From positions 1 through 64,000 of the forward strand of contig QHSX01000069.1 in assembly GCA_003221695.1 (NCBI GenBank): DNA of 64,000 nt, given 5' to 3'. This document shows positions 17,011-24,656 of the stretch, one piece after another. Source of the DNA: Candidatus Rokuibacteriota bacterium. GTDB lineage: Bacteria; Methylomirabilota; Methylomirabilia; Rokubacteriales; CSP1-6. The notes under the pieces were generated by a model. It saw only the letters and a list, made by a program, of their open reading frames with translations, was not told where the DNA came from and ran no database searches. The position numbers and the translations under genes are program-made. Within the stretch, counting starts at the first letter, position 1. Each line of letters begins with the position of its first letter.

Positions 17011-17808
17011 CTAGGGACTCGCGGTCATCCTCGCGGCGAGCCGCCCCAGCTCACGGGCGTCGACGTCGGACACAAGGGCGTAGCCCAGTTCCCCGCGCCG
17101 CCACATGATCACGTTGAAGCCGCGCTCCGCCGTCGCGTGCGTCTCCACGGGGCCGATCCGCGTCAGGTCGCGCGCCGGCCACGCGAGGCCGTCGGCGCGG
17201 AAGACGAGGAGCGAGATCGGATGCAGGCGGCGCGCGTAGACGAACACCGCCGCCTTGCGGTCCCGGAAGTAGCCGACGGCGCCGCCCTTGAGCGGGAAGT
17301 CGGCGTCACCTTCGAACGGCACCACCGGCGCGAAGTCCAGCCGCCCCTCGAACCATGGTTTCACCTGGTGGAGACCGCCGCTCTCGATGTCGAGCGGGTG
17401 CTGGCTGCTCAGCACGCGCAGATGATCGTTCACGGCCTCAGCCACCATGCCGGCCCGCTCGCTCGCCACCCGGGAGGCCGCGCGCTCGTAATAGAGGACG
17501 GGCGCGGCCACGAGCACCACCGCGGCGGCAGCCACAGCCGGCACGAGGGATGGTTTCCATCGGCTCCACCACGAGCGTTCGGTGGCGGACGCGGGCCACT
17601 CTGCAGCGAGCCGCCGCCTGAGTGCAAGCGAGGCGGGGTGTTGGGGCAGACGGTGCTCGAGCACCGACGTCAGCTCCTGCTCGACGGCGTCGGCGCGGGT
17701 GCAGTCGGCGCACCCGTTGAGGTGCGTGCGCACTTCAGCCTGCGCCGGGAGCGTCAGGCGGCCCCGCTGGTAGTCGAGCAACCGGATCCGCACGTCCTCG
17801 CAGTTCAT
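17011..17808 (-). CDS. Anti-sigma factor with zf-HC2 domain
   Basis: The 265-residue product starts MNCEDVRIRLLDYQRGRLT and carries the anti-sigma zinc motif H-x3-C-x2-C (THLNGCADC). A single transmembrane helix (about residues 85-105, AAAAVVLVAAPVLYY) leads to an extracytoplasmic C-terminal domain that would sense the signal. ATG 17808 with GGTGAG upstream is preferred; ATG 17826 would overlap the sigma gene. It should hold the adjacent ECF sigma factor inactive at the membrane. Confidence 0.88.
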   Translation of the reverse strand: MNCEDVRIRLLDYQRGRLTLPAQAEVRTHLNGCADCTRADAVEQELTSVLEHRLPQHPASLALRRRLAAEWPASATERSWWSRWKPSLVPAVAAAAVVLVAAPVLYYERAASRVASERAGMVAEAVNDHLRVLSSQHPLDIESGGLHQVKPWFEGRLDFAPVVPFEGDADFPLKGGAVGYFRDRKAAVFVYARRLHPISLLVFRADGLAWPARDLTRIGPVETHATAERGFNVIMWRRGELGYALVSDVDARELGRLAARMTASP

Positions 17809-17815
17809 CGGCGTC

Positions 17816-18334
17816 TCACCGGGCATAGTCCTTCAGCTGCTGCCTGAGCGCCGCCCGGGCGCGGGCGAGCCGCGATTTCACGGTTCCCACCGCGCATCCG
17901 ACGACGTCGGCGACCTCCACTTCGGTCAAGCCCTCCAGGTCTAGCAGGATGACCGTGCGCGCGTCCTCTGACAGCGTCATCAGCGCTGTCTCGATCTCCT
18001 CGGCGACCACATTGCGCAGGCGGTCCAGCTCGATGTCGCCGAGCAGCCACGCTTCGGTCGCCGCGCCCTGCGCGTCCGCGTCGACGGTGTCGAGGCCGCC
18101 CACCGTCGGGTTGTGGCGCCGGCGCCGGTACAGGCTCAAGAACGTGTTCCTTAATATTCGAAACAGCCACGCCTTCAAATTCGTACCAGGCGTGAACTGA
18201 TGCTCCGCCCGGAGCGCGCGCGCGTACGTCTCCTGCACGAGGTCCTCGGCGTCTGTCTCATTACCCGTGAGGTACCGCGCCAGGTTGTGCAGGGCGTCGA
18301 CGTAGGCCAACGCCTCGCTCGCCACCGCACTCAC
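17816..18334 (-). CDS. ECF-family RNA polymerase sigma factor
   Basis: GTG 18334, with AAGGGAG upstream, gives 172 residues. Region 2 holds [24 protein letters not shown] and [21 protein letters not shown]; region 4 holds [33 protein letters not shown], the helix-turn-helix for the -35 element. A longer ORF extends upstream but overruns the promoter region. The anti-sigma gene follows 7 bases downstream. A GGGAAC-N16-CGTT promoter precedes it, which predicts autoregulation. Confidence 0.92.
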
Positions 18335-18398
18335 CGCTGATCGGCTCCCTTCGCCACGCCCCAACCCTACCACCTGGCGGGAGCAGCCTCTCACTCTC

Positions 18399-18455
18399 GC
18401 AACGCGCGAGTCGGCGAATCGTTCCCAGGGAACGGGCGCGCGCCCGCGGCGTTGG
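18399..18455. promoter_or_regulatory. Divergent ECF-type promoter pair sharing one palindromic -35 element
   Basis: GTTCCCaGGGAAC (18421-18433) is a perfect inverted repeat. Rightward, GGGAAC (18428-18433) is followed after 16 bases by CGTTGG (18450-18455). Leftward, GGGAAC (18426-18421) is followed after 16 bases by CGTTGC (18404-18399). Both fit the GGAAC/CGTC-like pattern used by ECF sigma factors. The rightward promoter would serve the exported-protein/cupredoxin operon, the leftward one the sigma factor itself. Confidence 0.7.
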
Positions 18456-18464
18456 CAGGGGCGA

Positions 18465-18504
18465 GAGGCAACGCTTAGAGGTGAGGCAACGGTTAATGAG
18501 GCAA
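18465..18504 (+). repeat. Short direct repeats in the 5' leader of the cupredoxin operon
   Basis: GAGGCAACGCTTA (18465-18477) and GAGGCAACGGTTA (18483-18495) differ by one base and lie 18 bp apart. A shorter third copy, GAGGCAA, is at 18498-18504. They lie just downstream of the predicted ECF start point, so they would be in the leader RNA or act as protein sites. Confidence 0.5.
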
Positions 18505-18530
18505 AAACAACACACAGAGGAGAGGAGACC

Positions 18531-18827
18531 ATGAAACGGCATTTGGCGATCTTTGCCACAGCGGCGGCGCTGTCCCTTCCCGCTCTCGTCGAGGCCGGGA
18601 GCAAGACGGTGATCTCACCGGACGCGATGGCGGCTCCCGCGGCGCGAGGGTCGGTCGACGCCGCCGCGGCGTTGACGGATCTGCTTGCGGAGAAAGGGTT
18701 GATCACCCCGCAGGAGCAGAAGGACTTGACGCACCCGATGGGAGCGCCTTCAGTCGACGAGAAGGCACTGCGGGAATACTTCCGGACGGCGCCGTACCGC
18801 AACGGGTCGGACATCGGTAATGGTTAG
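18531..18827 (+). CDS. Small exported protein of unknown function
   Basis: A 98-residue product with a strong ribosome site (GAGGAGAGGAG) before ATG 18531. The signal peptide ([23 protein letters not shown]) is followed by a short acidic-helical domain including [20 protein letters not shown], similar to the short-helix motif seen in many small secreted proteins. No cysteines occur. It is the first gene of the predicted ECF-controlled operon, 22 bases before the cupredoxin. Confidence 0.7.
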
Positions 18828-18849
18828 CGAAGGCAGAAAGGGGTTCACG

Positions 18850-19197
18850 ATGAAGCCGCGAAACACGACCGCACGGTGGCCGTGGCGGGCCGCGATCGTC
18901 GCGGGGTTGGCCCTGGCCGCCCTGACGGCGGCGCACGCCTCGGCAGCGAGCTCGGCCGCCGTCGATATCAATGAGTTCAAGTTCGCGCCGGCGGTGCTCA
19001 CGGTCCCGGTAGGTACGACGGTGACGTGGATCAATCACGATGAAGAGCCGCACACGGTCACGTCCGCGACGGGCGCGTTCGGCTCCACCGGGCTCAGCAA
19101 CGAGGAAACGTTCGCGCAGACGTTCACCCGTCCCGGCACCTACGCGTACTTCTGCGCGCTGCACCCGCACATGAAGGCAACCCTGATCGTGAAATAG
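18850..19197 (+). CDS. Cupredoxin (plastocyanin/amicyanin-like type 1 copper protein)
   Basis: The 115-residue protein has a signal peptide ending near AHASAASS and a single cupredoxin domain opening VDINEFKFAPAVLTVPVGTTVTWINHD. All four type 1 copper ligands are visible: His in EEPHTVTS, Cys in YAYFCALHP, His in CALHPHM and Met in PHMKATL. It would carry single electrons or copper in the periplasm. ATG 18850 follows AAAGGGG; the longer GTG 18820 start is less likely. It is the middle gene of the ECF-linked operon. Confidence 0.92.
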   Translation: MKPRNTTARWPWRAAIVAGLALAALTAAHASAASSAAVDINEFKFAPAVLTVPVGTTVTWINHDEEPHTVTSATGAFGSTGLSNEETFAQTFTRPGTYAYFCALHPHMKATLIVK

Positions 19198-19225
19198 CTC
19201 GTCGACCCAACACAAGGAGGCGGAG

Positions 19226-20149
19226 ATGGACCGCATCGATCGTCGCGGATTTCTCGAGTGCATGGCCTGGGCGGGCGCGGGTGTCCTCTGGACCGCCGCC
19301 GGCGGCGTGGTGTCCTCGCGCCTGATCTCCTCGGCGGAGGCCGCGGAAGCGGCGGCCGGCAGCTTCAGCTTCGTCCAGATCAGCGACACGCACATCGGCT
19401 TCAAGGGACAGGCGAACGGCGACCCGGTGGCGACGCTCCAGCAAGTGGTGGACCGTGTCAACGCCCTCGAGCCCGCGCCGGCGTTCGTGCTTCACACGGG
19501 TGACCAGACCCACGGCCAGAAAGCGGGCGCCTTCGACACTGTTGCCGAGATCTTGAAGGGTGTGCGGACCGAGCGCATCCTCTACGTCCCCGGCGAGCAC
19601 GACGTCTTCCTGGACGGCGGCAAGGAGTATCTCGGCCGCTACGGCAAGGAGACGGTCGGCGGACGCGGCTGGCAGAGCTTCGACTACAAGGGCACGCACT
19701 TCGTCGGCCTCGTCAACGTGCTCAAGTACAAGGGCGAGGGTGTGGGCGCGCTCGGCGAGGACCAGATCGAGTGGCTCGAGAGGGACCTGGCCCCGCTCTC
19801 GGGCAGCACGCCGCTGATCGTCTTCGCGCACGTACCGCTCTGGTCGGTCTACCCCCAGTGGGGCTGGGTCACCGAAGACGCCGAGCGCGCTCTGGCCCAC
19901 CTCCGGCGCTTCGGCTCCGTCACCGTGCTCAACGGTCACATCCACCAGGTGCTCCAGAAGGTGGAAGGACACGTCAGCTTCCACACGGCGATGTCGACAG
20001 CATTTCCGCAACCGGCGCCCGGCAGTGCGCCCGCGCCCGGACCGATGAAGATCCCGGAGAGCGAAGCGCGGCGCATGATCGGCGTGACCGAGGTGACGTA
20101 CGTGCCCGGCACGCATCCGCTCGCCGTCGTCGACTCGACGCTGGGCTAA
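19226..20149 (+). CDS. Tat-exported metallophosphoesterase
   Basis: The 307-residue protein begins MDRIDRRGFLECMAW, a twin-arginine signal, followed by a hydrophobic core. Calcineurin-type motifs follow in order: ISDTHIG (about residue 52), HTGDQTHG, PGEHDVF in place of GNHD/E, and NGHIHQ near 236. The family hydrolyses phosphomono- or diesters with a two-metal centre. Tat export implies folding with metal in the cytoplasm. AAGGAGG lies 8 bases before the ATG. It is the third gene of the operon with the cupredoxin. Confidence 0.88.
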   Translation: MDRIDRRGFLECMAWAGAGVLWTAAGGVVSSRLISSAEAAEAAAGSFSFVQISDTHIGFKGQANGDPVATLQQVVDRVNALEPAPAFVLHTGDQTHGQKAGAFDTVAEILKGVRTERILYVPGEHDVFLDGGKEYLGRYGKETVGGRGWQSFDYKGTHFVGLVNVLKYKGEGVGALGEDQIEWLERDLAPLSGSTPLIVFAHVPLWSVYPQWGWVTEDAERALAHLRRFGSVTVLNGHIHQVLQKVEGHVSFHTAMSTAFPQPAPGSAPAPGPMKIPESEARRMIGVTEVTYVPGTHPLAVVDSTLG

Positions 20150-20252: not shown

Positions 20253-20891
20253 ATGACCGTGGCCGAGCTCTGGCGGTACCCGGTGAAGTCGCTCGGCGGC
20301 GAACGGCTCGGCGTGGCCGAGCTCTCCGACAACGGCATTGGCGGAGACCGGGTGGTCCACGTGCGGGACGGTCGGGGCCGAGTCATCACGGCCCGGACCC
20401 GGCCCCACTTGCTCGGCCTGCGCGGTACCCTCGGCCCCGACGGCGAGCCGCTGGTGGGCGGCCGCCCCTGGACCAGCGCCGAGGTGGCCGCATCGGTGCG
20501 GGCGGCGGCCGGGCCCGACGTCGAGCTCGTGCGTTACGACGGGCGCGACCGGTTCGACGTCCTGCCGCTCCTGGTCGCCACCGACGGCGCCATCGCCCGA
20601 CTCGGGGTGGACCACCGGCGGCTCCGACCCAATATCGTCATCGCCGGGGTGGAAGACCTGGCTGAGCGCACCTGGCCCGGTCGCCGGCTCCGCATCGGGG
20701 AAGCTGTCATCGGGGTGGCCCAGCTCCGCTCGCGTTGTGTGATGACGACGTTCGATCCCGACACGCTGGTGCAGGACGTCGGCGTCCTGCGCCGCATCGC
20801 CTCTGAGTTCGGCGGGCGCATGGCCCTCGACTGCGACGTGATCCACGGCGGCCGCCTCGCCGTCGGCGATCCCGTCGAACTGATAGATTAA
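20253..20891 (+). CDS. MOSC-domain protein
   Basis: A 212-residue protein with the MOSC N-terminal beta-barrel signature VAELWRYPVKSLGGERL and GIGGDRVVHV, and a core MOSC segment RSRCVMTTFDPDTLVQDVGVLR containing the conserved cysteine. Relatives bind molybdenum cofactor or transfer sulfur, as in mARC/YiiM types. GGGGGAGG precedes ATG 20253. It follows the metallophosphoesterase by about 100 bases on the same strand; whether it belongs to the ECF operon is unclear. Confidence 0.85.
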   Translation: MTVAELWRYPVKSLGGERLGVAELSDNGIGGDRVVHVRDGRGRVITARTRPHLLGLRGTLGPDGEPLVGGRPWTSAEVAASVRAAAGPDVELVRYDGRDRFDVLPLLVATDGAIARLGVDHRRLRPNIVIAGVEDLAERTWPGRRLRIGEAVIGVAQLRSRCVMTTFDPDTLVQDVGVLRRIASEFGGRMALDCDVIHGGRLAVGDPVELID

Positions 20892-20972
20892 GACGCGATC
20901 GCGACGTCCGCCTTGATGCGACCCGGGCGGGCCGTCATGACGTAACCCCGGTCACCGAGCAGGATTGTCTCG
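20888..20972 (-). pseudogene. Remnant of an ABC transporter ATPase gene (3' part)
   Basis: Bases 20897-20972 match 23991-24066 inside the downstream ATPase gene at 70 of 76 positions, same strand. The reading LLGDRGYVMTARPGRIKADV aligns with LLGDRVHVMTARPGRIKAEV of the intact gene. No Walker motifs remain and there is no start, so it is a fragment, probably left by duplication or recombination. Confidence 0.8.
20897..20972. repeat. 76-bp direct repeat, copy A (copy B at 23991-24066)
   Basis: The two copies are about 92 percent identical, in the same orientation and 3.1 kb apart. They flank the FG-GAP remnant, the MFS gene and the dienelactone-hydrolase-like gene. Confidence 0.75.
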
Positions 20973-21016
20973 AGAGTCAGCCAGAGCGCCGTGTCGACCG
21001 TGGTTATCCGCCGGCG

Positions 21017-23879: not shown

Positions 23880-24656
23880 TCAGCTCATCGCGCGGACCGC
23901 CTCTTCGTGGATCAGCGCCATGATGCGCCGCTTGATAACAATGAACTCGTCCGCGGTCAGCACACCGACCGAGCGGGGCCGCGGGATGTCGATCGCGACC
24001 TCCGCCTTGATGCGGCCCGGCCGGGCCGTCATGACGTGAACCCGGTCACCGAGCAGGATTGCCTCGTCGATGTCGTGGGTGATGAAGAGCACCGTCTTGT
24101 GGGAATGCTCCCAGATCTTGAGCAGAAGCTCCTGCATGAGCGAGCGGGTCTGGCTGTCGAGCGCGCCGAACGGCTCGTCCATGAGCAGGATGTCGGGGTC
24201 GTTGGCGAGCGCCCGAGCGAGTGCCACGCGCTGCATCATGCCGCCCGAGAGTTGCTTGGGGTAGGCGCGCTCGAAGCCTTCGAGGCCGACTTCCGCGATG
24301 AAGCGGCGCGCGACCGCGGCGCGCTCTTCGGCGGCCATGCCCCCGAGCTTGAGGCCGAACTCGAGGTTGTCCTGCACGGTGAGCCAGGGAAACAGCGTGT
24401 AGGACTGGAACACCATGCCGCGGTCCTTGCCCGGCCTGGTGACCAGCTTGCCGTCCAGATAGATGGCGCCCGCGGTCGGCTGGATCAAGCCGGCGACCAG
24501 CCGTAGCAGGCTGGATTTGCCACAGCCCGACGGGCCTACGATGACCGAGAACTCGTTCTCGTCGACCTCGAGGGAGATGCGGTCGAGTGCCGTGACCGGG
24601 CGTCCCATCCGCGGCGTGAAGCGCAGGACGACGTTGTCAATGCGCAGCTTGCCCAT
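23880..24656 (-). CDS. ABC transporter ATP-binding protein, taurine/sulfonate/nitrate type
   Basis: A 258-residue nucleotide-binding subunit with Walker A GPSGCGKSSLL, signature LSGGMMQRVALARAL, Walker B ILLMDEPFGALD and switch FITHDIDEA, in the SsuB/TauB/NrtD group. It powers the permease and binding protein encoded just upstream in the same operon (19-base gap to the permease). A 76-base piece near its 3' end is duplicated at 20897. Substrate class (organosulfur, nitrate or thiamin precursor) cannot be fixed. Confidence 0.92.
   Translation of the reverse strand: MGKLRIDNVVLRFTPRMGRPVTALDRISLEVDENEFSVIVGPSGCGKSSLLRLVAGLIQPTAGAIYLDGKLVTRPGKDRGMVFQSYTLFPWLTVQDNLEFGLKLGGMAAEERAAVARRFIAEVGLEGFERAYPKQLSGGMMQRVALARALANDPDILLMDEPFGALDSQTRSLMQELLLKIWEHSHKTVLFITHDIDEAILLGDRVHVMTARPGRIKAEVAIDIPRPRSVGVLTADEFIVIKRRIMALIHEEAVRAMS

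Follow-up and report, generated by a model that had tools for sequence, protein, structure and literature searches.

ECF sigma factor operons are mostly positively autoregulated, and AAC in the −35 element combined with CGT in the −10 element is a hallmark of the promoters involved (PMC8103513). For the general stress factor EcfG of Alphaproteobacteria the consensus is GGAAC-N16-CGTT (PMC3892343), and the motif described here equals it. The EcfG locus, in which phyR lies divergent from nepR–ecfG, likewise joins an autoregulated ECF operon to a divergent ECF-dependent unit (PMC8103513, PMC3892343); its partner genes, however, encode the anti-sigma factor NepR and the regulator PhyR, whereas the neighbours here are genes for a zinc-finger (zf-HC2) anti-sigma factor, a cupredoxin and a metallophosphoesterase. 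We found no literature report of a fused −35 palindrome or of phased spacing at the phyR/nepR–ecfG locus. At hrpJ–hrpL of Pseudomonas syringae, ECF polymerase at a divergent GGAAC promoter affects the adjoining gene of its own sigma factor, HrpL (PMC5263251), but hrpL itself is served by a sigma-54 promoter and its expression is affected negatively, whereas here the same ECF motif faces both ways. The bidirectional promoters of Escherichia coli (Warman et al., PMC12825309) also consist of pseudo-symmetric DNA at which polymerase can bind either way, one binding excluding the other. They share the −10 region and carry their −35 elements outside, whereas the present site shares central −35 elements with the −10 elements outside, and so is not a bidirectional promoter in the sense of that study. 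By protein family, the closest described system is SigR–RsrA/SigH of Actinobacteria (TIGR02947; relatives 40–50% identical), which also has a zinc-finger anti-sigma factor; the scores obtained here nevertheless lie below the family cut-offs, and the pair pattern is absent from 39 non-ortholog genomes carrying such 40–50%-identical ECFs, nearly all from other phyla and many of them actinobacterial.

The locus lies in a stretch of DNA of 64 kb, hereafter the window, from a soil-dwelling member of Candidatus Rokuibacteriota. Read directly from the sequence, CGTTCCCAGGGAACG at 18420–18434 is a 15-bp inverted repeat with one central base, and within it the 13-mer GTTCCCaGGGAAC spans 18421–18433. 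The original prediction, that this palindrome gives both strands GGGAAC at exactly 16 bp from CGTTG, is correct to the base: 16-bp spacers separate CAACG (18400–18404) from the GTTCCC half on the left and the GGGAAC half from CGTTG (18450–18454) on the right. The leftward −35-like GGAAC thus occupies 18425–18421 on the minus strand and its rightward counterpart 18429–18433 on the plus strand, 3 bp apart within CGTTCCCAGGGAACG; the −10-like CGTTG elements, at 18400–18404 (minus strand) and 18450–18454 (plus strand), stand about 45 bp apart with the −35 pair at the centre. The leftward unit carries the ECF hallmark, AAC in the −35 and CGT in the −10 element, upstream of the sigma factor's own gene. 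Across the window GGGAAC-N14-18-CGTTG matches exactly twice, both times at the palindrome (0.16 expected), a count that 1 of 100 shuffles reached. Alignment places a GTGA-like conserved stretch at 18391–18394 (minus strand), 5 bp past the leftward −10, and the GTGA-like GCGA at 18461–18464 (plus strand), 6 bp past the rightward −10; both likely lie near the predicted transcription starts. DNA hairpin stability at the palindrome was not in excess (z −0.96), and a search of the site for a sigma-70 promoter or a terminator found none. Further right, the leader of the 98-aa gene (18466–18512) contains imperfect direct repeats GAGGCAACG.TTA with extra CAACG motifs and no matching −35.

To the left, the SigR/SigH-like ECF gene (17816–18334, minus strand) encodes 172 aa from GTG 18334, its exact start codon being uncertain. 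The protein has the ECF (group IV) architecture, sigma2 and sigma4 only, joined by a short linker (Pfam Sigma70_r2 at residues 10–73, Sigma70_r4_2 at 112–163), and an anti-sigma gene adjoins it, as is typical of the group. TIGR02947 is its best NCBIfam model (E 1.4e-41), although the 142.3 bits fall short of the equivalog cut-off of 251.55. A leaderless start at GTG 18394, at the predicted transcription start, was considered and is not favoured; family similarity begins only near 18334. The anti-sigma gene (17011–17826, minus strand) overlaps the ECF gene at the latter's 3′ end, an adjacency kept in several relatives. Its product has a zf-HC2 domain (E 3e-7), the zinc-finger motif HLNGCADC in its N-terminal part and, probably, a transmembrane segment; at 30.9 bits it scores below the 62.5 required of an RsrA equivalog (TIGR03988). 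To the right, and on the plus strand, the operon opens with a gene for a 98-aa protein of no known family with an N-terminal hydrophobic stretch (18531–18827), a homolog of which adjoins the pair in G015. It continues with an amicyanin/plastocyanin-like cupredoxin (18850–19197; Pfam Cupredoxin_1, 9e-14; amicyanin model 1.1e-14, below its cut-off), whose gene adjoins the pair in most relatives, and a calcineurin-like metallophosphoesterase (19226–20149; PF00149, 9e-13), found behind the cupredoxin in relatives too. Beyond the operon, a minus-strand frame at 20888–20990 ends in LLGDRGYVMTARPGRIKADVAIAS, a sequence similar to the C-terminal portion of the ABC ATPase at 23880–24656, and is possibly a degenerate duplicate fragment of that gene.

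The arrangement recurs in other genomes. A search for AACG-N16-GTTCC-N0-30-GGAAC-N16-CGTT located the pair in 23 of the family's 57 genomes and in 0 of 38 from the rest of the phylum, and the reversed-pattern control returned zero; a first-order model expects about 2e-5 pairs per 64 kb, or about 0.08 in 57 genomes. ECF orthologs (70–95% identity) are present in 25 of the 57, among them all 23 that carry the pair. ECF protein relatives at 74–80% identity, where named, come from Candidatus Rokuibacteriota, and those at 40–50% mostly from Actinobacteria. The pair adjoins the ECF/anti-sigma genes, upstream of the ECF gene, in 21 genomes, and faces a cupredoxin and/or metallophosphoesterase gene on its opposite side in 19 of these; of the remaining two, G069 has a beta-propeller gene there, and in G015 the contig ends. 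The prediction of a divergent ECF-type pair, one unit facing the sigma gene and the other the cupredoxin operon, is thus supported by 21 genomes, with a spacer of exactly 16 in every promoter found even though 15–17 was allowed. Aligned, the pairs show high information content at GGAACG and CGTT around variable spacers, a −35/−10 signal that is partly circular where the exact pattern had selected the sites. Relatives retain CGTT in their ECF-side promoters, and on the rightward side conservation extends to CGTTGGCA, the extended form of the −10, and to the GTGA-like stretch; the conservation of GTGA and GGCA is not circular, because neither was part of the search pattern. In its palindromic form the site is conserved as CGTTCC-NNN-GGAACG with varying central bases (CAG, CCG, CAT, AAC, ACG, CGC), so that the outer half-sites are conserved rather than the 13-mer GTTCCCaGGGAAC as such. 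The ECF of the window's genome shares 95% identity with its counterparts in genomes of other genera (G015, G066) but only 78–80% with those of G001 and G003 from its own genus; transfer of the ECF cluster (17816–20149) or a mixed genome bin might explain this.

Relatives that lack the target beside the ECF gene provide natural controls. With no cupredoxin near the ECF gene, G074 has an intact leftward promoter and lacks a rightward one; in G060, which has a different gene to the right of the ECF, a rightward GGAAC persists 13 bp away while its −10 has decayed or gone. The predicted rightward promoter is thus missing or decayed where its target does not adjoin, in support of the originally proposed divergent, autoregulated pair. 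Within the window's own genome, strict GGAACG-N15-CGTTR has five other matches, all inside apparent coding regions, which leaves the palindrome pair as the genome's only credible strict sites. Pattern searches for the loose GGGAAC-N15-17-CGTT showed no genome-wide enrichment (14 versus 10 in the reversed control), so a large strict-motif regulon in this genome is not supported. Elsewhere in the family, pairs lie between cupredoxin and DUF6529 membrane protein genes rather than immediately in front of an ECF gene (G063, G067, G064). Divergent cupredoxin/DUF6529 pairs occur among L167, L168, L161, L162, L182 and L163, and YVTN-type beta-propeller genes adjoin the pairs at L182 and L163. Cupredoxin, DUF6529 and beta-propeller genes beside such pairs suggest a common regulon; a DUF6529 search of the window's genome gave no match, its control being equally silent.

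What varies among relatives is how far apart the two −35 elements stand. Among the 21 ECF loci the gap from GGAAC to GGAAC is 3 bp in 11, 14 bp in 3, 15 bp in 1, 22 bp in 1, 23 bp in 3, 24 bp in 1 and 25 bp in 1, and at five further pair sites it is 2, 22, 23, 24 and 24 bp, the 2-bp case (G035:C250) having a cupredoxin on one side only. Within the searched range of 0–60 bp there is no exact-pattern pair at gaps of 4–13, 16–21 or 26–37 bp; three more pairs stand at 38 and 42–43 bp, the one at 38 being ECF-free and out of phase, and a doubtful one stands at 55 bp. The spacing statistics exclude two doubtful pairs, G074:C172 (22 bp) and G028:C233 (55 bp), for which either the adjoining genes do not clearly belong to the regulon or the motif context is poor. 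The shared palindrome, as originally proposed, is therefore only part of the picture: it occurs at 11 of the 21 ECF-linked loci, and the other 10 keep the gene cluster with gaps of 14–15 or 22–25 bp. Fusion of the −35 elements is thus optional, the conserved thing being the divergent pair; of the three spacing forms the palindrome is the tightest, and it is not essential. The 22–25-bp gaps often contain a central T-rich run (CTTTTC, ATCTTTTTC, CGTTTTG) in a setting of 69% G+C, as in the pairs of G005, G010, G035, G063, G067 and G068; such a run could be a shared upstream element contacted by polymerase alpha subunits.

Taken together, these observations lead us to posit that the palindrome is a compact two-headed autoregulated promoter for the adjoining ECF sigma factor, a reading to which we assign a probability of about 85%; genome comparison lends good support to the divergent-promoter interpretation. 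That the pair reflects chance or an assembly feature of a G+C-rich genome might be argued from the single strict matches that also fall inside genes, but about 0.08 pairs were expected against the 23 genomes observed, the reversed control gave zero and an ECF ortholog always accompanies the pair, so that conservation already refutes this explanation. A palindrome lying between two genes also invites reading as an operator, bound by a dimeric repressor or activator and placed between two promoters by coincidence: CGTTCC-NNN-GGAACG resembles a dimer site in look and size, and helically spaced half-sites are typical of regulator operators. We nonetheless consider this very improbable, since the half-sites may stand 3, 14–15 or 22–25 bp apart while each stays fixed at 16 bp from its own CGTT, since G074, where one gene is served, retains a lone half-site with its −10, and since the sequence is that of an established ECF −35.

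A closer contest concerns not whether there are two promoters but whether they are coupled. Successive gap classes differ by roughly one helical turn, which suggests, in an exploratory way, helical phasing of two polymerase sites. On the ECF tree the gap class changed at least seven times, and single genera contain contrasting gaps (3 versus 22 bp in g1, 15 versus 25 in g16, 3 versus 23–24 in g8). Rayleigh tests on tree-independent states gave p 0.0009–0.0034 at a period of 10.5 bp and p 0.007–0.016 with the period free between 8 and 13; these phase tests are exploratory, the idea having been formed after seeing the data, with few independent changes and weak gene-tree support at several forks. 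We propose tentatively, and regard as rather doubtful, that the −35 gap is kept in helical phase (3, 14 or about 23–24 bp), so that a pair of ECF holoenzymes, or a single holoenzyme and the contacts of its alpha subunits, would come together on one particular side of the helix. The alternative accepts both promoters and rejects only phasing and coupling: two independent ECF promoters would stand back to back, their 3-bp overlap and preferred distances having arisen by accident from common ancestry and the tightness of the intergenic space. We give this roughly even odds. It fits the 10 of 21 ECF-linked loci that keep both promoters with separated −35 elements, and the 14-bp cases may represent a single ancestral event; it does not readily account for the empty intervals at 4–13, 16–21 and 26–37 bp, or for class changes within g1, g8 and g16 that fall on approximately whole turns.

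Under the two-headed promoter model, release of the sigma factor by its zinc-finger anti-sigma factor would allow sigma-bound polymerase to load in either direction, each with its own GGAACG −35, its own CGTT −10 and a 16-bp spacer. Leftward transcription would express the ECF/anti-sigma operon and close a positive feedback loop, and rightward transcription would express the 98-aa gene, the cupredoxin and the metallophosphoesterase. An ECF holoenzyme is reported to cover DNA to about −60, as stated for sigma-E (PMC5263251). With a 3-bp gap the other −35 element would fall inside this footprint, so that two polymerases would probably exclude each other at this palindrome, output being split by alternating occupancy. 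At gaps of 22–25 bp two polymerases might just fit, and the spacings in relatives (3, 14–15 or 22–25 bp), near whole helical turns, suggest that the relative face of the two sites matters. In the bidirectional promoters of E. coli, competition makes a difference only if one of the directions is strong (PMC12825309), and its effect at this palindrome may therefore be small.

Our literature search, with subscription journals mostly outside its scope, found no description of −35 elements fused in a palindrome or of −35 pairs set at helical intervals, and no ECF study for this phylum. We suggest that the ECF regulon likely comprises the cupredoxin and the metallophosphoesterase, and in relatives also DUF6529 and beta-propeller genes. 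If phasing is true, each intergenic unit would be one coupled switch, with exclusive use at 3 bp and joint occupancy possible at 22–25 bp. The family thereby offers a natural series of one sigma factor and one gene pair at three promoter distances, in which the competition between polymerases at a regulator's own promoter and at the promoter of its target can be measured.
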